Origin: Chloroflexota bacterium
GTDB taxonomy: Bacteria > Chloroflexota > Anaerolineae > Anaerolineales > Anaerolineaceae
Reading direction: 5' to 3'
DNA: 64,000 nucleotides
NCBI GenBank assembly: GCA_009773005.1
Contig: WOUT01000017.1
Location: 30,721 to 94,720, forward strand
Positions 24,210 through 37,100 of this stretch are shown here, in pieces. The translations under genes were made by a program, and so were the position numbers. The notes beneath the pieces were generated by a model, which was not told where the DNA came from, made no database searches, and was given only the letters and a program-made list of their open reading frames with translations. Position 1 is the stretch's first letter; the number at the start of each line of letters is the position of its first letter.

Positions 24210-26393
24210 ATGAAAATATTTCGAATTCTTTTGTTAATGGCATTTTTGCTTTCTGCTTGTAAAGGTGTAAAACCGCAGCCAACGACTAATCCTGCAAACG
24301 GATTGCCCACACCGGTGGTTAAGACCACCAGCGTCCCTGATGTCTCGGCAACCACGATGAATTATTTGACAAAATGGAATGCAAATGATTATGCGGGAAT
24401 GTACGCTATGTTATCCAAAACAAGCAAAGATGCCATTACGGAAACCGATTTTGAAAAATTATATAAGGATACGGCGGTGAACCTGACGTTGAAACAGATT
24501 GACGCCGGGATAATTTCCACATTGATTAACCCGGCTTCTGCAAAAGTAAGTTATCAGGTGAATTTCATTACCAACCTATTTAACAATATTCAACGAAAGA
24601 TGGATATGAACCTTGTGTTGGAAGAAGGAGAGTGGAAAATCCAGTGGGAAGAGGGGTTGATTCTGCCCGAATTGACAGGCGGAAACAGGTTGATGTTAAG
24701 TCTTAAACCCCCTGCGCGAGGAAATATTAACGACAAAAATGGTAACACGTTGGTAACCCAAACTGAAGCTGTTGCTCTCGGGGTTATCCCAAGTCAGATC
24801 TCTGACGCCTACGAGCCAGCGCTTCTCCAGACGCTATCAGACATATTGGGGAAACCCAAAAATATCATTAAATCCTATTATCGGGATGAGGGTGCAAATT
24901 GGTATGTTCCTGTTGGAGAGGTTTCTCAAGCAGGTTATAACGAGGTAGCCACAACTCTAGACGCATTGAGTGGTTTGGTCACTAATCCTTATACTGCCCG
25001 TTATTATTTCAACGGCGGGGTTGCTCCACAAGTTATTGGTTATATGCTTAGCATTTCACCTGAACAATATGACGAATACCGCCGAAAGGGATATGCCGGG
25101 GATGAAAAGATTGGCGGGGCTGGTCTGGAAAAATGGGGAGAGTCCGATTTAGCAGGCACCCCTGCTGCGGATTTATATGTCGTGAAGCCAGATGGGACGT
25201 TTGAAACACGTTTGGCAAGTCTGGATCCCAAAGCCTCGAATAATATCTATACAACGCTAGACAAGAATTTCCAAATCCTTGTTCAAAAAGCTCTTTTAGG
25301 TTTCTCGGGCGCCATCGTAGTCATGGAAGTTGAGACTGGCAAAATTCTGGCCATGGCTTCATCGCCAGATTACGATCCCAATGTTTTTCAAACGAACAAT
25401 TTTAACAGTCAATACGTTTTAAGCGATCTTGTCAATGATGACCAAACTCCGTTATGGAATAGGGCTGCGCAATCTGCTTATCCGTTAGGGTCAGTATTCA
25501 AGTTGGTCACTGCAGCCGCTGCTTTGGAGTCAGGACTTTATGAACCTACCACAACTTATGAATGCACCAGTCAATTCACTGAACTCCCAGGTTATATAGG
25601 CGATGATTGGACATATACCAAAGGACTTCCGCCATCCGGAACGCTAACCTTGCTGGAAGGTATTATGCGGTCTTGCAACCCATGGTTCTATCACCTGGGA
25701 CTAGATCTATTTCGGCAAAAAGGGGCAACATACCTTTCTGACATGGCACGCGGATTTGGGTTAGGCGAGGCAACCGGCATTGGCGCTGTTGCGGAGGACG
25801 CAGGAAAGATCAATGACCCGGTGACAGAAGGGGATGCAGTTCAAATGGGCATCGGTCAGGGCAATATGCTTGTGACGCCTCTGCAAGTGGTGGATTTCAT
25901 TGCGGCAATTGGCAATGGTGGAATCCTCTATCGACCTCAGATCATTGATAAGATCACCACCATTGATGGCGAAGTAATTCAGTCTTTCACTCCTGAGGTT
26001 CGGGGAAAATTACCGGTGAGTCAAGAAACGCTGTCTGCTCTTAAAGAGGGAATGCGTATGGTTATAGAAGAAAAACGCGGAACGGCGCATTTAGTTTTCC
26101 TGGGAATGCAAACCCCGATTTATGGCAAGACCGGCACTGCGACAACTTCGATCATCGACCCTCATTCCTGGTTTGCTGGCTTCACAGACGCCAATCACAC
26201 GGATAAACCTGACATTGCAATTGTTGTCATCGCCGAAAATGCCGGGGACGGATCAAAATTTGCTGCCCCAATTTTTAAACGAGTTATTCAGGCTTATTTC
26301 CTCGGAACAGTCCAAACTCTCTATCCGTGGGAAAAAGACCTCTATTTGACCAAAACACCTACTCCAGAGGAAACGGTAACACCAGCGCCATGA
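24210..26393 (+). CDS. Class B penicillin-binding protein (MecA/PBP2-like lipoprotein)
   Basis: A 727-residue cell-wall transpeptidase. The N-terminus is a lipoprotein-type signal (LLSAC, C17), then a MecA-N/NTF2-like domain (about 45-150), a PBP dimerisation domain (PPARGNINDKNG onward), and the transpeptidase with SVFK active-site serine (about 428), SCN (about 488) and KTGTA (about 640). The MecA-N domain places it with low-affinity PBP2a-like proteins, although that does not prove resistance. A Pro/Thr-rich tail follows. Its stop overlaps the rsgA start (ATGA). Confidence 0.92.
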   Translation: MKIFRILLLMAFLLSACKGVKPQPTTNPANGLPTPVVKTTSVPDVSATTMNYLTKWNANDYAGMYAMLSKTSKDAITETDFEKLYKDTAVNLTLKQIDAGIISTLINPASAKVSYQVNFITNLFNNIQRKMDMNLVLEEGEWKIQWEEGLILPELTGGNRLMLSLKPPARGNINDKNGNTLVTQTEAVALGVIPSQISDAYEPALLQTLSDILGKPKNIIKSYYRDEGANWYVPVGEVSQAGYNEVATTLDALSGLVTNPYTARYYFNGGVAPQVIGYMLSISPEQYDEYRRKGYAGDEKIGGAGLEKWGESDLAGTPAADLYVVKPDGTFETRLASLDPKASNNIYTTLDKNFQILVQKALLGFSGAIVVMEVETGKILAMASSPDYDPNVFQTNNFNSQYVLSDLVNDDQTPLWNRAAQSAYPLGSVFKLVTAAAALESGLYEPTTTYECTSQFTELPGYIGDDWTYTKGLPPSGTLTLLEGIMRSCNPWFYHLGLDLFRQKGATYLSDMARGFGLGEATGIGAVAEDAGKINDPVTEGDAVQMGIGQGNMLVTPLQVVDFIAAIGNGGILYRPQIIDKITTIDGEVIQSFTPEVRGKLPVSQETLSALKEGMRMVIEEKRGTAHLVFLGMQTPIYGKTGTATTSIIDPHSWFAGFTDANHTDKPDIAIVVIAENAGDGSKFAAPIFKRVIQAYFLGTVQTLYPWEKDLYLTKTPTPEETVTPAP

Positions 26394-27301
26394 CAAAACT
26401 GACCGTTTCAGGGTGGGTAACCCGGTACCAATCCGGATTTTATACTATCCAAACGGAAAGTGGAAAAATTACCTGTATCTTGAGGGGTCGGTTAAAACGC
26501 AGAACCATTCAAGGGGATATCATCAGTATCGGTGACCGAGTTCAGATCAGTCTTCAGTCTGACGGGACTGGAGCGGTAGAGGTCATTGAACCCCGTCACA
26601 GCGAATTGGTTCGACTGGACCCTACTCCAAGAGGAGCTTTCCGACAAATTCTACTATCTAACCCAGATCAGGTGGTTGCTGTTTTTGCCTGCGCTCAACC
26701 CGAACCTCATTTGCGCATGTTGGATCGGTTTCTGGTGATTGCAGAAAAACAACAATTAAAAGCCGTTGTGGTTGCAAATAAAGTTGACCTGATCGGTTTA
26801 AAGAATGCCAAAAAAATCTTTTCTGACTATCCCCCTCTGGGTTACCCGGTGATCTATACTTCTGCGAAAAAAGGGGACGGACTAGAGGAATTGAAGGGCA
26901 TTCTTGAAGGCAAGATTTCCGCTTTGGCGGGTCCATCCGGGGTCGGAAAATCCAGTTTGTTAAACGCCATCCAACCTGGTTTAGGATTGGCAGTTCGAGA
27001 GATCGGGGCGCGTAACGAACGAGGCAGGCATACAACGGTTGTCCGTGAAATGTTCCCGATCGAGGGTGGCGGATACGTGGCTGACTTACCTGGCTTAAGA
27101 AAATTATCCTTATGGGATACGCAGCCTGAAGAATTGGATGGGTATTTCCCTGAAATACGCCATTTGGTCTCACAATGCCAATTCAATGATTGCGCCCATT
27201 TTGACGATCCTGGTTGCGCCGTGGTAAAGGCAGTTGAAGAAGGGGGCATCAGCGCTGAGCGGTATGAATCATACGTGCGTATGCGGCTTGGAGATGCGTA
27301 A
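26390..27301 (+). CDS. rsgA: Ribosome small subunit-dependent GTPase A
   Basis: A 303-residue circularly permuted GTPase of the RsgA/YjeQ family. The start is ATG 26390, overlapping the PBP stop. The order of motifs is the expected permuted one: an OB fold, NKVD (G4, about 130), GPSGVGKSSL (G1, about 180), RHTT (G2) and DLPG (G3), then a C-terminal zinc finger with cysteines in CQFNDCAHFDDPGC (about 263-276). RsgA helps in late 30S ribosome assembly. Confidence 0.95.
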   Translation: MTKLTVSGWVTRYQSGFYTIQTESGKITCILRGRLKRRTIQGDIISIGDRVQISLQSDGTGAVEVIEPRHSELVRLDPTPRGAFRQILLSNPDQVVAVFACAQPEPHLRMLDRFLVIAEKQQLKAVVVANKVDLIGLKNAKKIFSDYPPLGYPVIYTSAKKGDGLEELKGILEGKISALAGPSGVGKSSLLNAIQPGLGLAVREIGARNERGRHTTVVREMFPIEGGGYVADLPGLRKLSLWDTQPEELDGYFPEIRHLVSQCQFNDCAHFDDPGCAVVKAVEEGGISAERYESYVRMRLGDA

Positions 27302-28618: not shown

Positions 28619-29608
28619 ATGACTGATCAACTGTTAAATGTACAGAATCTGGAGACTATCTTTAAGACGCCGGAAGGCGTTGTTCACGCAGTTAACGGTG
28701 TTTCATTTAATTTGACTGAAGGAGAAACCCTTGGTGTTGTGGGAGAAAGCGGCTGCGGTAAAAGCGTCACTATGCTTTCATGTCTGCGGCTCATTCCATC
28801 GCCTCCTGGCAAGACGGTCGCCGGAGAAGCCTTTTTCCACGGACAGGATCTATTAAAAATGTCGACGGAAGAAATCCGCAACGTCCGCGGTGGGCAGATA
28901 AGTATGGTGTTCCAAGACCCCATGACCTCGTTGAATCCAGTCATGACAATAGGCAAGCAGCTTGCAGAACCGCTTATGCTGCACATGAACATGACCCGTG
29001 AACAAGCCCGCAAGCGCTCCATCGAGTTGCTTGGTTTAGTTGGAATTCCGAATGCGGGTGACCGGCTAAAAGATTATCCACACCAGTATTCCGGCGGGAT
29101 GCGGCAGCGGGTGATGATTGCGATGGCACTCTCCTGCAACCCGCAGATCCTGATCGCCGACGAACCTACCACCGCACTGGATGTGACGATTCAGGCACAA
29201 ATCGTAGAACTGGTCAAGCGCCTCCGTGATGAATTGGGCATGGCAATCATCTGGATCACTCATGATCTTGGCGTGGTGGCAAGCATCGCCCACCGCGTGG
29301 CGGTGATGTACGGCGGTTATATCATCGAAGACTCCGATGTAAAAGATTTGTATCTCAATCCCACCCATCCCTATACGCTTGGTTTATTGGGCAGCCTGCC
29401 CCAGATTAACGAAAAAGAGCATACGCGATTATTCTCCATTGAAGGGATGCCTCCCGTATTGTACAACAAACCGCAATCCTGCCCATTTGCTCCCCGCTGC
29501 ACCTGGGTGACAGAACGTTGCTGGATCGAAAATCCGACCCTGGAACCGGTCTCCCCCGGACATCGAGTGGCTTGCTGGGTTGATACTAAAACCGGGAGTA
29601 AACGATAA
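28619..29608 (+). CDS. Dipeptide/oligopeptide ABC transporter ATPase (DppD/OppD type)
   Basis: A 329-residue ATPase with Walker A GESGCGKS (about 41-48), Q-loop in [12 protein letters not shown], signature [12 protein letters not shown] and Walker [14 protein letters not shown]. The C-terminal oligopeptide extension has four cysteines ([14 protein letters not shown] and VACW), the site that binds an Fe-S cluster in DppD of several bacteria. It is the first gene of the operon, and its stop overlaps the start of the second ATPase. Confidence 0.94.
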
Positions 29609-30588
29609 TGACCGCTGATAATAACGTCCTGATTAAAGTTGAAAATCTTGTAATGCACTTTCCAATTTACCGCGGTGTCATTCGCCGGAAGGTGGGCGCT
29701 GTTCATGCGGTGGATGGAGTTTCCTTTAAAATCCATCAAGGTGAAACACTGGGTTTAGTAGGTGAATCCGGATGCGGCAAATCTACCACCGGACGTACGA
29801 TCCTGCAGCTTTACAAACCATCTGCCGGCCATGTTTTCTACAAAGATAAAGATCTGGTCAATTTAAAACCAGAAGCCATGCGTATGATGCGGCGCGAAAT
29901 GCAAATGATCTTCCAGGACCCTTATGCGAGCCTGAACCCTCGCATGACCTTGCGCGACATTGTCGGCGAGCCTTTGATGGCGTTCGGTGAAGCCGGCGGC
30001 AAACAAATTGATGAACGGGTTGCCAATTTACTTGAACTAGTAAAACTCAATCCTGATTTTGCCGGGCGATACCCACACGAATTTTCCGGCGGGCAACGGC
30101 AGCGTATCGGTGTTGCCCGAGCGTTGGCATTAAATCCTTCGTTTATTGTTTGTGACGAACCCATTTCTGCTCTGGATGTTTCAATCCAGGCGCAGGTTGT
30201 TAATCTGCTCGAAGATCTACAAAAAGAATTAGATCTTACTTATTTATTCATTGCCCACGATCTTTCAATGGTGAGACACATCAGCAACCGCGTGGCAGTG
30301 ATGTATCTAGGTGTTATTGTTGAACTTGCTGACCGCAATGAACTTTACAACAATCCGCTTCACCCGTACACTCAAGCTTTACTTTCAGCAATTCCGGTGG
30401 CAGATCCGGCTTTCTATAATAAACGTCACCGTATGGTTTTGGAAGGCGATGTGCCTTCACCTGTTAACCCGCCGTCCGGGTGCCGCTTCCGTACACGTTG
30501 CCCGATCGCTGATGGCTATTGTGCAGAAAAGAAACCCGAGTGGCGTGAAATCCGGCCAAATCACTTCGTGGCCTGTCATAAAGTATAA
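29608..30588 (+). CDS. Dipeptide/oligopeptide ABC transporter ATPase (DppF/OppF type)
   Basis: A 326-residue partner ATPase with Walker [26 protein letters not shown], signature [12 protein letters not shown] and Walker [12 protein letters not shown]. The C-terminal cysteine-bearing extension ([19 protein letters not shown]) matches the OppF/DppF type. Together with DppD it would form the asymmetric ATPase pair under the permeases encoded at 32895-35010. Confidence 0.94.
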
Positions 30589-30698: not shown

Positions 30699-32750
30699 AT
30701 GCGTAAGTTATATGGTTTAATTGGTTTGTTGATGGTGATCAGCCTGGTGTTGTCTGCTTGTGCTAAACCAACCCCTGTTGCTGAAACCCCTGTTGCGGGA
30801 GAACCCGTTGTTACCGAAGAACCAGTGGTCGAAGAAGTTGTATTGAACCCATACCTTGGCTCTAACATGCTGGATGGTAACGGCGCCCCCAACACGTTCT
30901 TTGATGATGTTCACATCCGCAAAGCATTCGCCTATTGCTTTGACTGGGATACCCTCATCAATGAAATTTGGAAAGGCGAAGCTGTCCAATCTAGGACGCT
31001 TGCACTGCCTGGCATGCCTGGCTATAATCCCGATCAAGCAGTCTATTCGATGGATTTAGCAAAATGCGAAGAAGAGTTCAAACTGGCTGACGTTGACAAA
31101 GACGGCATCCCCGCTGGCGAAGATCCCGACGATGTTTGGGAAATGGGTTTCCGCTTGCAGATGGGCTACAACACCGGTAACACAACCCGGCAGCTCTATG
31201 CCGAGATCCTTCAGGGAAATCTTGCAACAGTTAACGATAAATTCACCCTCGAAGTTCTTGGTCTGCCCTGGCCTGCTTACCTCGCTTCAGTACGCGCCAA
31301 GAAAATGCCCATCATGGTTGCCGGATGGTTGGAAGATATCCACGACGCCCACAACTGGTATCAGCCTTACACGACCGGTACCTACGGTTCCCGACAGAAC
31401 ATGCCTGCTGAATTGAAAGAACAATTCGGGGCAATGCTGGATGAGGGCGTAGGCTATGTTGACCCAGCCAAACGCGCTGAGGTTTACTATAAATTCAATG
31501 AGTTGTACTTCAACGAGGTACCTGGCATCATCACCGTTCTGCCAACCTCACACGGTTATGAACAGACCTGGGTGCAGGGACGTGTTTTGAATCCCATCTA
31601 CTCTGGTGATGTTTTCAAGTTCATGTCAAAGGCTGCGGGAGCGAAGAACCCCACTGAATTGACTGAAGTCACTGCCGGTGATCTCGACACTCTGGATCCC
31701 GCGCTCTCTTATGACACTGCCAGTGGACAGCTCATTCAGAACATCTACGAGACACTGGTCTTCTACGATGGCGTAAAGACCGATGCCTTTGTCCCGATGC
31801 TGGCTACTGAAGTTCCGACTGTGGAAAATGGTGGAATCTCCGCTGATGGCACGGTCTGGACCTTCAAAATCCGCACCGGCGTCAAATTCCACGAAGGCGG
31901 CGATTTGACCCCGTCAGACGTTGCTTACTCCTTCCAGCGTGGTTTACTGCAGGGTGGACATTCCTCCCCGCAGTGGCTGCTGGCTGAACCCTTCTTTGGA
32001 ATTGGCAATGATGACATTACCATGCTTGTGGACGAAGGCGCTTCTGCTGACGACCGCGAAGCCCTGCTCAAGAACGACGCCGCAGTCCTCAAGTCTGCTT
32101 GCGAAAAAGTTCAGGCTGCGATCGTTGCTGATGATGCTGCCGGCACGGTGACCATGACCCTTGCTCAACCCTGGGGTCCCTTCCTGGCGACCATCGCCAA
32201 TGGCTGGGGTTCCGTTATGGACAAGGAATGGGTCATTGAAAAAGGCGGCTGGGATGGTTCCTGCGATACCTGGCAGAATACCTATGCTGTGACATCCGCT
32301 GAAAACATCTTCACCCCGATTGCCAATGGCACCGGCGCCTACAAGCTGGATCATTGGACTCCTGGCGAGGAACAGGTTCTAACCAAGTTTGCTGGTTACT
32401 GGGGCGAGCCTGCTAAGTTGGATCGCATCAATCTCAAGCTTGTCAATGAGTTCGGTACCCGCTTCCAGATGCTTCAGCAGGGAGATGCCGATATCATCTA
32501 TGTTCCCGCCGAGCAGCGACCACAGGTTGACCCATTGGTTGGTGAGCTTGCTGTCTATGATTTTGACACCCTCAGCTACAAAGCAGCAGTTCCAGTGTGC
32601 GGTTACGATAAAACACAGCTTGGTCAAGCCATGTACACCCCTTGTAAGGCTGGCGAGACTACAGCACAATCAAAACAATATCTGCGCATCTACATGGGAC
32701 GCCCTGCTTTATCACAGGATGTCTTGATCATGAACTTCAAAATCAAGTAA
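30699..32750 (+). CDS. Peptide-type substrate-binding lipoprotein (SBP_bac_5) with halves in permuted order
   Basis: A 683-residue lipoprotein (signal ends LSAC, C21; Pro/Val/Glu linker to about residue 48). After the linker comes what is normally the C-terminal half of an SBP_bac_5 protein: DDVHIRKAFAYCFDWDTLI near residue 70 (compare DppA DDVKVRQALTYAVNKDAII) through to WVQGRVLNPIYSGDVF near 305. Only then, from residue 317, comes the normal N-terminal half: LDTLDPALSYDTASGQLIQN, WTFKIRTGVKFHEGG, GTGAYKLDHW, ending at VLIMNFKIK, which in other members leads straight into the segment found here at residue 50. So the order is circularly permuted. All subdomains seem present, so it may still bind peptides for the operon's permeases. 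Confidence 0.85.
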   Translation: MRKLYGLIGLLMVISLVLSACAKPTPVAETPVAGEPVVTEEPVVEEVVLNPYLGSNMLDGNGAPNTFFDDVHIRKAFAYCFDWDTLINEIWKGEAVQSRTLALPGMPGYNPDQAVYSMDLAKCEEEFKLADVDKDGIPAGEDPDDVWEMGFRLQMGYNTGNTTRQLYAEILQGNLATVNDKFTLEVLGLPWPAYLASVRAKKMPIMVAGWLEDIHDAHNWYQPYTTGTYGSRQNMPAELKEQFGAMLDEGVGYVDPAKRAEVYYKFNELYFNEVPGIITVLPTSHGYEQTWVQGRVLNPIYSGDVFKFMSKAAGAKNPTELTEVTAGDLDTLDPALSYDTASGQLIQNIYETLVFYDGVKTDAFVPMLATEVPTVENGGISADGTVWTFKIRTGVKFHEGGDLTPSDVAYSFQRGLLQGGHSSPQWLLAEPFFGIGNDDITMLVDEGASADDREALLKNDAAVLKSACEKVQAAIVADDAAGTVTMTLAQPWGPFLATIANGWGSVMDKEWVIEKGGWDGSCDTWQNTYAVTSAENIFTPIANGTGAYKLDHWTPGEEQVLTKFAGYWGEPAKLDRINLKLVNEFGTRFQMLQQGDADIIYVPAEQRPQVDPLVGELAVYDFDTLSYKAAVPVCGYDKTQLGQAMYTPCKAGETTAQSKQYLRIYMGRPALSQDVLIMNFKIK

Positions 32751-32779
32751 ATTTTGAATTTTGCACATTAGTAATAACT

Positions 32780-32811
32780 GCATGCGGGGACGTGATAAAG
32801 TCCCCGCATGC
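32780..32811 (+). promoter_or_regulatory. Intercistronic hairpin between binding protein and permeases
   Basis: GCATGCGGGGAC (32780-32791) pairs perfectly with GTCCCCGCATGC (32800-32811) around an 8-base loop. There is no T run, so it is more like an mRNA-stabilising or processing hairpin than a terminator. Such hairpins after binding-protein genes are known to raise binding-protein levels relative to the membrane subunits. Confidence 0.6.
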
Positions 32812-32894
32812 AACACCAAATTTTGCCCTGCGGTATGCCTTGAACCTGTCGTTCAATTCATTCCGAACGGCAAAAACCAAGTTGAGGTGTATAA

Positions 32895-33959
32895 ATGACC
32901 AATTACATTATTCGCCGCTTGCTTCTCGTCCCGATATTACTGTTTGGGGTAACAGTGATTATTTTTGGACTGCTTCAATTTTTGGGCCCAGTCGAGCGGT
33001 CCGCGCTTTTTGTCAAGGACTTTCCCAAGAATGAAAAACAAATTCAAGGCATCATTCGCAATTATGGTCTTGATAAACCAGTGTATGAACAATACTGGAT
33101 TTGGTTAACCGGACGGAAGGATGTTGTAACCGGTCAACGCAAGGGCGGAATTCTTTTTGGCGACTTTGGATACTCCAGAACAGCATCGCAACCGGTGATC
33201 GATATCATCAAGAATCGTTTCCCAAATACCCTGGATTTAACCATCTGGGCAATATTCCCGATGTTATCAGTGGGTATCTGGTTGGGAGTTAAGGCAGCCG
33301 TCCACCAAAATGGATTTATTGACCAGGCCGCCCGCATCTTTAGTATAATCGGCACATCATTCCCGGTCTTTGTATTTGGTCTGTTGGTCTTGATGTTGTT
33401 CTACGGGAATCTAGGTTGGTTCCCGCCGGGAAAGATGTCGGAGTGGGTTAGTAAATTGATATACTCCGGTGAATTAATTCAATATACAAAGCTGCTCAGC
33501 ATTGACGCCCTTCTCAATGGCAGGTTTGATGTATTCCTGGATGCTTTGCGTCATATGTTTCTGCCAATTCTGACTCTTTCATATATCACCTGGGCGACAT
33601 TTGTCCGCGTTACCCGATCTTCCATGCTTGAAACCCTCCGCATGGACTATGTGACCACTGCCCGCGCCAAGGGATTGAAAGAAAAAGATGTAATCAATAG
33701 GCATGCCCGTCCTAACGCGATGATACCCATCACTACGTTGGCAGGATTCAGCATTGTTGGTCTACTGGGCGGAGTGGTAATCACAGAGACTGTTTTCAAC
33801 TACCCGGGTATTGGTCAAGCTGCCGCCAATGCGGCTCAACAGCTGGATGTCGTCACCGTGTTGGGATTTGCCATCTTTAACGGGTTGATCTTAATCGTTT
33901 CGAATTTGATAGTTGATATCCTGTACGGGATCATTGATCCGCGCGTGCGGTTATCTTAA
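32895..33959 (+). CDS. Dipeptide/oligopeptide ABC permease (DppB/OppB type)
   Basis: A 354-residue inner-membrane subunit. The N-terminal helix MTNYIIRRLLLVPILLFGVTV-type start, the extended extracytoplasmic region after it, and the EAA-loop RAKGLKEKDVINRHARPNA (about residues 258-276) are diagnostic for the B-type permease; GVVITETVFNYPGIGQ follows. It heterodimerises with the C-type permease encoded 10 bases downstream. Confidence 0.93.
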   Translation: MTNYIIRRLLLVPILLFGVTVIIFGLLQFLGPVERSALFVKDFPKNEKQIQGIIRNYGLDKPVYEQYWIWLTGRKDVVTGQRKGGILFGDFGYSRTASQPVIDIIKNRFPNTLDLTIWAIFPMLSVGIWLGVKAAVHQNGFIDQAARIFSIIGTSFPVFVFGLLVLMLFYGNLGWFPPGKMSEWVSKLIYSGELIQYTKLLSIDALLNGRFDVFLDALRHMFLPILTLSYITWATFVRVTRSSMLETLRMDYVTTARAKGLKEKDVINRHARPNAMIPITTLAGFSIVGLLGGVVITETVFNYPGIGQAAANAAQQLDVVTVLGFAIFNGLILIVSNLIVDILYGIIDPRVRLS

Positions 33960-33969
33960 GGAGATTTCC

Positions 33970-35010
33970 ATGACAGAAATTACAGTTCCAACTGGAGATA
34001 ACAGCTTGCTAAAAGAGTCGCTGCCCGAACGAAAGATCAGTCGTTTAGAGCGCATCCTCGGGCCCGAGAATTTCCGAATAGTCACAGGCTTGCTTAAAAC
34101 TCCTACTTCAATCATAGGGTTCATTCTCATCGGATTATTTATTTTGATCGCGATTTTTGCCCCTTTGATCGCCCCCCCGGTTTCAAAGGATCCATATAAG
34201 ATGCCAAGGGATGGTTTTTCTTCAGAGCCAAAACCGATGGGCGCAGAATGGATCAAGAACGTACCGGATATCCCTTTCTGGTACAAAGCAGTCACCGGCA
34301 AAGACAAATGGGTGCACCTGTTGGGGACTGCCCAAGGGCAATATGATATTTTTTACGGAATTATATGGGGTACCAGAACTGCCTTTAAAACCGGCTTTAT
34401 CGTGGTAGTTTCAACCTTTCTGATCGGTATCATCATTGGTTCTATCTCTGCCTATTATGGCGGTGTAGTTGACAATATCATCATGCGTATTGTGGATATC
34501 TTCATGACGCTTCCATTTATTCTGGCAGCTTTGATCATGGCTGCGGTGCTTACGCCTGTAATTGGAAGAAGCCTCCTCCCGTCTATCCTTGCGCTTGTTG
34601 CGTTCGGGTGGATGGGATACTCACGTATCATCCGAGGAGACATCCTCTCCATTAAAGAACGGGATTTTATCCTGGCAGCCCGGGTGGTCGGTGTGCGCGA
34701 CAGCCGCATCCTGTTCCGCCACATTTTGCCTAATGCGATCTTCCCGACCATGGTTTTGGCTTCGCTCGCTATAGGGGATGTCGTCTTATCTTTTGCCGCA
34801 CTTTCCTTTTTAGGGATTGGTACCCAGGTCGGATACGCCGACTGGGGACAGATCCTCAGTTTTGCGAGGAACTGGATCACCAGCCTGCAAGATTACTGGT
34901 ACATTGTGGTCTGGCCAGGTCTTACGCTCGTCTTTTTTGTGATGGGGTGGAACCTGGTGGGTGACGCCTTACGCGATGTGCTTGATCCGCGCATGCGTGG
35001 TAAAACATAA
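33970..35010 (+). CDS. Dipeptide/oligopeptide ABC permease (DppC/OppC type)
   Basis: A 346-residue membrane subunit; the start is ATG 33970, which follows AAGGAG with seven-base spacing, rather than the earlier in-frame ATG inside the upstream gene. It has the C-type N-terminal extension with one helix (IIGFILIGLFILIAIFAPLI), then the transport core of five helices, and the EAA loop AARVVGVRDSRILFRHILPNA. SFAALSFLGIGTQVGYADWG is typical of DppC/OppC. A strong terminator follows. Confidence 0.93.
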   Translation: MTEITVPTGDNSLLKESLPERKISRLERILGPENFRIVTGLLKTPTSIIGFILIGLFILIAIFAPLIAPPVSKDPYKMPRDGFSSEPKPMGAEWIKNVPDIPFWYKAVTGKDKWVHLLGTAQGQYDIFYGIIWGTRTAFKTGFIVVVSTFLIGIIIGSISAYYGGVVDNIIMRIVDIFMTLPFILAALIMAAVLTPVIGRSLLPSILALVAFGWMGYSRIIRGDILSIKERDFILAARVVGVRDSRILFRHILPNAIFPTMVLASLAIGDVVLSFAALSFLGIGTQVGYADWGQILSFARNWITSLQDYWYIVVWPGLTLVFFVMGWNLVGDALRDVLDPRMRGKT

Positions 35011-35129: not shown

Positions 35130-37100
35130 ATGAAACCTGAATACCGAAGAGTGCAATTGTTGGTATGTGTTGCTCTACTCGCTACGATTATGATTTCAGC
35201 TTGTGGCAACAATGTGACAAATCCAACAACCACGAACACCCCGGCGGCATCCATCACAGAGCCGACCATTCAACCGGCTGCCGTTGAACCGAAAACTCTG
35301 GTTGTTTGTCTTGGCGAAGAACCTCTATCCCTTTACCTGTACGGGGGTTCTTCTCAAGCAATGTGGAGCATTCTTGAAGCGATCTATGATGGTCCAATAG
35401 ATACCACTGATTACAGGCCAACACCGGTGATTCTTACTACCCTGCCAACAGTCGAGAATGGCGGAGTGGTATTGAGATCAGTTGCGGTAACTGCAGGCGA
35501 TAAGGTCGCCAATGTTGAAGGCGATCTGGTAGCTTTGGAAAAAGGGGTCAAGGTGTTTCCGGCAGGATGCGCTTCAGCGAATTGTGCAGCGGAATGGGAT
35601 GGTAAATCCGAGTTGGATCTCGTCCAGATGACCACAACTTTCACTCTTCTACCCGGTCTCAAGTGGTCAGATGGCCAACCCTTGACAGCGGAAGATTCAG
35701 TTTATTCTTTCGAGCTCAGCGCTGACTCAGCAACGAAAGTCTCAAAAAACACGATCAAACGAACTGCAGATTATCGCGCGGTGGATGCCCAAACTGTCCA
35801 ATGGACAGGCATACCAGGCTACCTGACGCTAACCCCGGCGGCATTTTTCTGGATCCCTCAGCCGAAACATTTGCTAAGCGCTTTTACGGCAGAACAATTG
35901 AATACTTCTGACTTGACAACCAAGAAACCGGTGGGTTGGGGACCATATCTGATCGATGAATGGACAGCAAACGATCATATCCGCCTGGTAAAGAACCCGA
36001 ATTATTTTAGATCTTCAGAAGGACTGCCAAAGTTTGACGTGCTGGTTTACCGGTTCCTTCCCGGCCTGCCTGAAGCCGATCTCTCACCTATCGTGACTGG
36101 AGAATGTGACATCATGGATCCTTCGGTTGGTCTTGAAAACCAGATCCAATCAGTACGCGAGCTTGAGATTGGCGGAAAACTTAAAGCATATTTCAGTCAT
36201 GGTCCGGCATGGGAACTGTTGAATTTTGGGATTAAACCCGCGTCTTATGACGAGGTTTTTAACCCCTATCTTGATCGCCAAGACTTCTTCGGAGATGTGC
36301 GAGTGAGACAGGCTTTTGCTAACTGTATTGACCGCGAAAAGATCATCAGCGAAGTCTTGTTCAGCCAATCGCAGATCCCGACTTCGTATCTGCCCGTTTC
36401 ACATCCGTATACCGCAACAGATTTACCTGTGATTGCTCACGATACGGCAAAAGGCATCCAGCTTCTTGAAGAAACGGGCTGGAGAGACAAAGACGGCGAC
36501 ATTAACACACCGCGGACGGCAGATGGAGTAAAACAAGTTATTAACGGCACTGAATTTACCATAAATTATTATCTCACCGAGACCACGGTTCACAATCAGG
36601 TTGCAGAAATTATCGTTTCCTCGTTAAAGGAATGTGGTGTGAGCGTGACCACAACTTACCTTCCTGCATCAGAGATGCTGGCTGCAGGACCTGACGGGGT
36701 CGTGTTTGGCCGCAATTTTGACCTGGCTGAATTAGCCTGGTCTTCGGGTAACCTGCCTCCCTGCTTTCTCTACACATCCTCAGAGATCCCTGATGAGAAA
36801 AACGCCTGGCTCGGGACGAAATATGGCGGCGTGAATTTTACCGGCTATTCAAACAAAGATTATGATAAAGCTTGTTCAAATCTGCTTTCTGCCGGAGTAG
36901 ATATTAACACATTTAATACCAATAATCAGGAAACACAACGATTGATCGCAGAAGAACTACCGGTACTTCCATTGTTCTACCACGTCAAAACGATGGTGTC
37001 GCGAGTTGATTTGTGCGGTCTTTCACTGGACGCAAGTTCCCGCAGCCCTATGAACACTGTTGAGGCTTTGTGGTTTGCAAACAACTGCGCCACAAAGTAA
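35130..37100 (+). CDS. Second peptide-type substrate-binding lipoprotein (SBP_bac_5), normal domain order
   Basis: A 656-residue lipoprotein with signal ISAC (C25) and a Thr/Pro-rich linker. Here the SBP_bac_5 landmarks are in the usual order: GLKWSDGQPLTAEDSVYSF (about 176-194), VGWGPYLIDEW, then VRVRQAFANCIDREKII (about 390-406) and the C-terminal lobe. It is only distantly similar to the binding protein at 30699-32750. Separate promotion from the transporter operon suggests that it supplies a second set of ligands to the same permease, or that it serves another transporter. Confidence 0.88.
   Translation: MKPEYRRVQLLVCVALLATIMISACGNNVTNPTTTNTPAASITEPTIQPAAVEPKTLVVCLGEEPLSLYLYGGSSQAMWSILEAIYDGPIDTTDYRPTPVILTTLPTVENGGVVLRSVAVTAGDKVANVEGDLVALEKGVKVFPAGCASANCAAEWDGKSELDLVQMTTTFTLLPGLKWSDGQPLTAEDSVYSFELSADSATKVSKNTIKRTADYRAVDAQTVQWTGIPGYLTLTPAAFFWIPQPKHLLSAFTAEQLNTSDLTTKKPVGWGPYLIDEWTANDHIRLVKNPNYFRSSEGLPKFDVLVYRFLPGLPEADLSPIVTGECDIMDPSVGLENQIQSVRELEIGGKLKAYFSHGPAWELLNFGIKPASYDEVFNPYLDRQDFFGDVRVRQAFANCIDREKIISEVLFSQSQIPTSYLPVSHPYTATDLPVIAHDTAKGIQLLEETGWRDKDGDINTPRTADGVKQVINGTEFTINYYLTETTVHNQVAEIIVSSLKECGVSVTTTYLPASEMLAAGPDGVVFGRNFDLAELAWSSGNLPPCFLYTSSEIPDEKNAWLGTKYGGVNFTGYSNKDYDKACSNLLSAGVDINTFNTNNQETQRLIAEELPVLPLFYHVKTMVSRVDLCGLSLDASSRSPMNTVEALWFANNCATK

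Follow-up and report, generated by a model that had tools for sequence, protein, structure and literature searches.

A probable natural circular permutant of the SBP_bac_5 receptor lipoproteins in an Opp/Dpp-type operon, and its permuted relatives in Chloroflexota

The permuted receptor and its parts

The stretch of DNA analysed here (the window) comprises 64,000 nucleotides of contig WOUT01000017.1 (positions 30,721 to 94,720; assembly GCA_009773005.1) from a member of the Anaerolineaceae, phylum Chloroflexota. Within an operon for an Opp/Dpp-type ATP-binding cassette (ABC) importer it carries a gene whose product is very probably a natural circular permutant of the SBP_bac_5 substrate-binding protein (SBP) lipoproteins, with a predicted DppA/OppA-like fold and a likely role in supplying the surrounding OppBCDF importer. 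Judged from sequence comparison, the same receptor family has changed its order repeatedly in Chloroflexota, the change being recurrent and falling at four cut sites. The gene and its parts, in window coordinates, are:

30699..32750, + strand: circularly permuted SBP_bac_5 substrate-binding lipoprotein P0001, 683 amino acids (ATG start; open reading frame and Pfam)
30699..30761, + strand: signal peptide through lipobox Cys21, the predicted lipid anchor (sequence, by eye)
30762..30842, + strand: flexible linker rich in T, P, V and E (predicted local distance difference test, pLDDT, below 50 for residues 23-46)
30843..31631, + strand: canonical C-terminal part, now first; residues 49-311, corresponding to DppA precursor ~301-524
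31089..31136, + strand: loop DKDGIPAGEDPDD, the position where cut D permutants among the relatives are opened
31632..31643, + strand: short linker AAGA (residues 312-315, the join as read here) from the old C-terminus to the old N-terminus
31644..32747, + strand: canonical N-terminal part, now second; residues 316-683, corresponding to DppA precursor ~36-300

The preliminary description of this gene, made from the sequence alone, had placed the C-terminal half first, and this is borne out by three comparisons. The protein scores 200 bits against PF00496 (curated Pfam cut-off, 32.4) with segments that run from profile positions 194-365 to positions 2-185, the reverse of the N half to C half order of the family; owing to this swap it was filed as a permuted variant and not as a canonical member. 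Compared with solved structures using HMMER, it falls on 5u4o and on DppA (1dpe) as three stretches in exchanged order. Rotation of the chain raised its best local alignment score from 1269 to 2126 against the normal-order relative L062, and from 172 to 269 against Escherichia coli DppA. Both parts are homologous to one parent and their order is exchanged, which defines a natural circular permutation. The two-part layout of the earlier description stands, with corrected boundaries that put the start of the folded part at residue 49 and that of the N half at residue 316. The chain ends within the N-terminal part, with MNFKIK followed by the stop codon.

The receptor retains in its sequence an export signal and a membrane anchor, namely the signal peptide and lipobox Cys21, and nothing at the AAGA join suggests an internal signal peptide. 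Among permuted database proteins (duplicates removed) a lipobox-like motif, defined by a loose pattern, lies in the first 60 residues of 158 out of 161, at a median of 30 residues ahead of the first profile-matched residue. With DppA, OppA and the other cluster C members of SBP_bac_5 the protein shares the Pfam family, the operon type and the signal peptide, and it is predicted to share the fold; it differs in its swapped halves and exceeds E. coli DppA in length by about 150 residues. PF00496 was the sole family found by Pfam at an E-value of 0.001, with no cluster B (type I) receptor domain.

Conservation of the swapped order

All genomes sampled belong to the phylum Chloroflexota. The host genome holds a single copy of the receptor's subfamily. 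A junction-spanning match in the same order, at 58% identity or more, was present in 30 of 147 genomes of the same family (the host included; three of them partial), and the relatives listed with a full match contain no internal stops. A second, overlapping set consists of 38 named loci found with the permuted protein as query. The same swap occurs in 22 of these (L040-L060 and L072; 62-74% identity per half), including L058 of the isolate Longilinea arvoryzae KOME-1; the others comprise L061, swapped at about 50% identity, 12 loci of normal order and three fragments. The best 120 of 2260 database proteins are all in the swapped order. Normal-order homologs exist, and the permuted order has been passed on.

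The host assembly is a fragmented draft of 105 contigs, and a chimeric contig, or a rotated one carrying a normal-order gene, might for that reason be suspected. The 22 named loci come from other records, though, and share both the order and the expected flanks, and one is from an isolate; since the same order recurs in this way, chance or misassembly is excluded, an artefact being next to impossible.

The complete arrangement oppD-oppF-SBP-oppB-oppC is found in 17 of the 22 swapped loci, all of which have at least one neighbour pair, and in nine of the 12 normal-order loci. The permuted protein therefore occupies the slot of its normal-order relatives.

Other permutants and their cut sites

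Numbered according to the DppA precursor, the four cut sites are A (142/150), B (~200), C (~300/301) and D (366/368-375). Opened at cut C are the window receptor with its kin, the groups of L061 and P0265, and a distinct subfamily of 560-600 amino acids (L245, L246, L252-L256). Two further proteins, L247 and L248 (638-665 amino acids), have a cut-C-like look with a weak match and were left out of the trees. Cut D occurs in P0122-P0127, P0211, L078 and L079 and, in another subfamily, in L002 and its same-genus relatives. The normal-order L080 (1564-3843, - strand) carries an alanine-rich insert of about 80 amino acids in the loop where cut D permutants open. Cut B, just ahead of NGTGP, is known from L120 (730-2892, + strand) and L122 (1513-3639, - strand), in two genomes of one genus. 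Cut A is found in L006 of the host genome and in a large group spread over the phylum: in 56 of 400 genomes sampled across it, 24 of them outside the class, a single match in that order spans the join, and the order was read directly in 20 fetched loci.

Six SBP_bac_5 genes (PF00496) are present in the host genome, three in normal order and three permuted, each of the latter with its own cut site. Besides the window receptor these are L002 (G000:C37, 1207-3012, + strand), which has the cut D order and is near to DppA-like receptors (3m8u, E-value 2.5e-54), and L006 (G000:C33, 895-2544, + strand), which has the cut A order. The same-genus relatives of L002 also display the cut D order, whereas those in other genera have the cut A order instead. 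A census of another seven genomes, with about 60 SBP_bac_5 genes in all, gave 11 permuted ones, counting one unsure gene of 869 amino acids; G038 had none among 13 and G070 had three.

Altogether 459 profile-matched sequences were classified as normal (175), permuted (271) or partial (13), a ratio of permuted to normal that is no frequency because the sequences were gathered by similarity to permuted or normal-order queries. By site the permuted ones divide into 190 at C, 53 at A, 18 at D and two at B, that is, 263 at the four sites; eight are unsure (six shortened sequences, L251 and L261) and stand outside the site counts. L249 (1198-3804, - strand) and L251 (516-3143, - strand), of about 870 amino acids, have Pfam pieces that may be in swapped order; L249-L251 are not claimed as a permuted group, generic profiles having placed a lone piece or an unsure pair in them.

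How often the order changed

Every sequence was re-ordered into canonical order before trees were built, and long or thinly filled rows were dropped (5 of 82 in the subfamily tree, 7 of 60 in the wider one). In the tree of the window receptor's subfamily (82 rows) cut C is divided among separate groups, and normal-order relatives are interleaved with these. With the cut-C group defined by order, ahead of any tree, forcing it into a single clade cost 287 log units and was rejected by the approximately unbiased (AU) test (p 8.4e-6; 5 of the 82 rows dropped). The N half (p 0.0032) and the C half (p 7e-11) each rejected it on their own, a result that disfavours a simple exchange affecting one half. 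The broader, careful tree, which includes E. coli OppA and DppA (53 rows), required ten changes among five orders, and on its starred branches alone the label 'normal' has to change eight times. Across the bootstrap trees the number of changes needed was 5-6 for cut C, two for A, 2-3 for D and one for B. Trees of all rows gave five (82 rows) and nine (60 rows, quick) changes as against five and ten after dropping.

The L002 group, which has cut D, is nested within the clade of cut A (99/95) and is therefore a permutation of a permutant, although the branch that places it beside L175 alone has a bootstrap value of 88.

Could all the cut-C proteins descend from a single ancient permutation, followed by reversions, or with permuted and normal copies exchanging sequence by gene conversion? 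The cut-C groups of the subfamily are all opened at nearly one place, to within a few residues, and closely spaced SBP copies (L069, L070, L092, L146, L150 and L151) would permit exchange. Against this, monophyly of cut C is rejected on the whole alignment as well as on either half, and the L245 group is accompanied by its own set of normal-order relatives (45-50% identity). The permutations at A, B and D call in any case for events of their own, and a reversion is itself another permutation. A single origin is for these reasons considered unlikely, although reversion or gene conversion may explain single steps.

Predicted fold and function

AlphaFold2 yielded one confident fold for the permuted receptor (pLDDT 91.7; predicted template modelling score, pTM, 0.86). 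DppA has both of its chain ends on one lobe. In the permuted protein the old ends are joined by the short linker and the chain would have been opened at DppA residue ~300; the lipid tether would consequently enter the protein at a different point, the predicted fold being unchanged. The receptor would be lipid-anchored, its two lobes closing on the ligand as in the rest of the family, and would deliver that ligand to OppBC with OppDF as the motor, as other receptors do. Whether the protein benefits from the moved tether point is a matter of speculation. Tentatively, the SBP_bac_5 receptors of Chloroflexota might be seen as a natural permutation scan, re-cut at least eight times at four sites, once on a permutant, and selected for a tether shift that alters docking to the importer or reach.

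The preliminary description proposed that a working permuted receptor is encoded in an Opp/Dpp-type operon, and the conserved order, the operon slot, the stop-free relatives and the confident predicted fold support this well. Among the checks put forward with it, the look at related genomes met the same order in 22 of the 38 named loci, isolate KOME-1 included, and structure prediction turned the permuted order into a single confident model. The permutation is taken to be genuine and conserved, and the protein is predicted to fold and likely to function.

Several results weigh against this picture or against the origin by duplication discussed below. When the chain is rotated, the summed score of a DppA-seeded profile stays the same (196.3 versus 196.8 bits) and expresses no preference, because HMMER adds pieces whatever their order; of the rotated-versus-unrotated comparison, the rise in local scores holds and the profile sum does not distinguish the two. 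The protein reaches no NCBIfam equivalog cut-off, scoring 85.4 bits against the 1005 set for DppA (NF043070). The alignment given to AlphaFold2 consisted of 103 relatives, all permuted, and the model therefore speaks for compatibility of this order with the fold and not for folding as such. The structural alignment, made with a sequential aligner, compared mainly residues 311-677; Foldseek and VIA returned no full-length structural match, as expected of sequential aligners. As to origin, no fused or half-deleted intermediate was detected among open reading frames of 400-1500 amino acids and database proteins (the 459 matched sequences), and stand-alone N-terminal half receptors exist: L269 (2033-2872, + strand; 280 amino acids) and L270 (2655-3542, - strand; 296 amino acids).

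Genetic route

The preliminary description proposed tandem duplication or a block swap as the origin of the permuted gene. Most likely the route led through tandem or fused copies, in which start and stop points would move while one complete copy stays intact. Tandem normal-order copies occur in relatives; in L146 a pair is arranged head to tail in the same frame, separated by a stop codon and a short spacer. Such copies fit permutation by duplication as described in a review (PMC3320104). Every two-piece sequence begins at or after profile position 135, and P0105 is the only one with overlapping pieces (31 positions). For a block swap, the direct repeats detected were weak two-copy matches of 15-27 nucleotides, none of them convincing at the junctions. 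No extra match to a C-half remnant was found in the locus downstream of the receptor stop. An apparent frame of 1465 amino acids in G427 proved to be two tandem same-frame normal-order open reading frames, of 710 and 754 amino acids.

The half receptors bring in a different route, in which the parts became separate exported genes and were re-fused in the other order. Both L269 (G173) and L270 (G070) carry a signal peptide and lipobox of their own and cover about positions 11-206 of the 494 of the generic profile; they lie within long contigs of genomes from two families, one genome apparently being Longilinea arvoryzae. The tight join of about four residues, free of any sign of an internal signal peptide, would also suit a fusion. 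On the other hand, both halves end away from the four cut sites and no partner half was found beside either of them. Given that stand-alone halves exist, fission and fusion is a possible route alongside duplication, if a less probable one. A split receptor apparent in L271 was traced to an undetermined base in a draft contig.

Comparison with known permutants

Natural permutation is a known kind of change. Judging by our searches, its repetition at four sites in one receptor family, three of the sites being used within a single genome, is new; the listings obtained from open-licence PMC literature showed no permuted SBP_bac_5 receptor. A receptor-term search of the CIRPIN preprint (PMC12667903) returned one unrelated passage. 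Among the closest known systems is Tp0684 (MglB-2) of Treponema pallidum, according to PMC4990184 a naturally permuted glucose-binding lipoprotein ('cluster Bc') of solved structure, for which ligand binding and conformational change were demonstrated by experiment. Like the window receptor it is tethered, serves an ABC importer and arose by natural circular permutation, and its authors raised a similar idea of a benefit from the shifted tether (PMC4990184). Tp0684, as presented there, has the cluster B sugar-receptor fold and one permuted topology, whereas the window family belongs to cluster C and has four cuts and repeated events. The review PMC3320104 puts the number of circularly permuted pairs, natural and engineered ones together, in the hundreds, and lists DNA methyltransferases, with documented intermediates, and saposin/swaposin as natural permutants. 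The latter two are likewise permuted at the gene level; the SBP_bac_5 cases differ in being receptors, in recurring within one phylum and in reaching three differing permutants within one genome.

As a rule, circular permutation is encountered as a rare curiosity that happened once. In the present case a single receptor family of one phylum seems to have undergone it repeatedly at a few places, and the Longilinea arvoryzae isolate appears to hold three permuted receptors plus a stand-alone half. If so, the family would make it possible to study in a natural setting where two-lobed receptors tolerate being cut, how permutations originate stepwise and whether the position of the tether is relevant. 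Two warnings follow: profile searches and annotation list these permutants as ordinary SBP_bac_5 proteins, and structure aligners that work sequentially pick up just a part of each.

Operon and surroundings

The permuted gene is linked to Opp/Dpp-type permease and ATPase genes:

28619..29608, + strand: OppD-type ATPase (ABC_tran and oligo_HPY)
29608..30588, + strand: OppF-type ATPase (ABC_tran and oligo_HPY)
32779..32812, + strand: 13-bp hairpin after the receptor stop and before oppB (-32.9 kcal/mol for a 100-nucleotide stretch, z -4.2)
32895..33959, + strand: OppB-type permease (BPD_transp_1 and BPD_transp_1_N)
33913..35010, + strand: OppC-type permease (listed from TTG; the real start may be later)
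35130..37100, + strand: second SBP_bac_5 protein of the operon, in normal order (PF00496 profile 17-358, one piece)

The second, normal-order SBP (35130-37100) makes it conceivable that it feeds the importer and that the permuted protein is a decoy or sensor outside transport. Relatives of this second SBP (41-46% identity) are, however, located near oppC in loci where the first SBP has normal order (L062, L066, L068 and L071), so that it does not look like a replacement, and the permuted gene, placed between oppF and oppB, has the position that is usual for the receptor. We therefore consider a decoy quite improbable and favour a receptor that serves the importer.

The permuted gene has kept its flanks, with the signal peptide and linker ahead and the strong hairpin behind. 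The hairpin, contained in the 144-nucleotide gap that follows the receptor stop, is perhaps an mRNA-stabilising or attenuating element.

RsgA/YjeQ is a permuted GTPase conserved across bacteria that goes back to a single ancient permutation. The window also encodes an RsgA-type GTPase (26327-27301), in which the motifs occur in the order NKVD, GPSGVGKSS, DLPG; this corresponds to the permuted arrangement known for RsgA-type GTPases.
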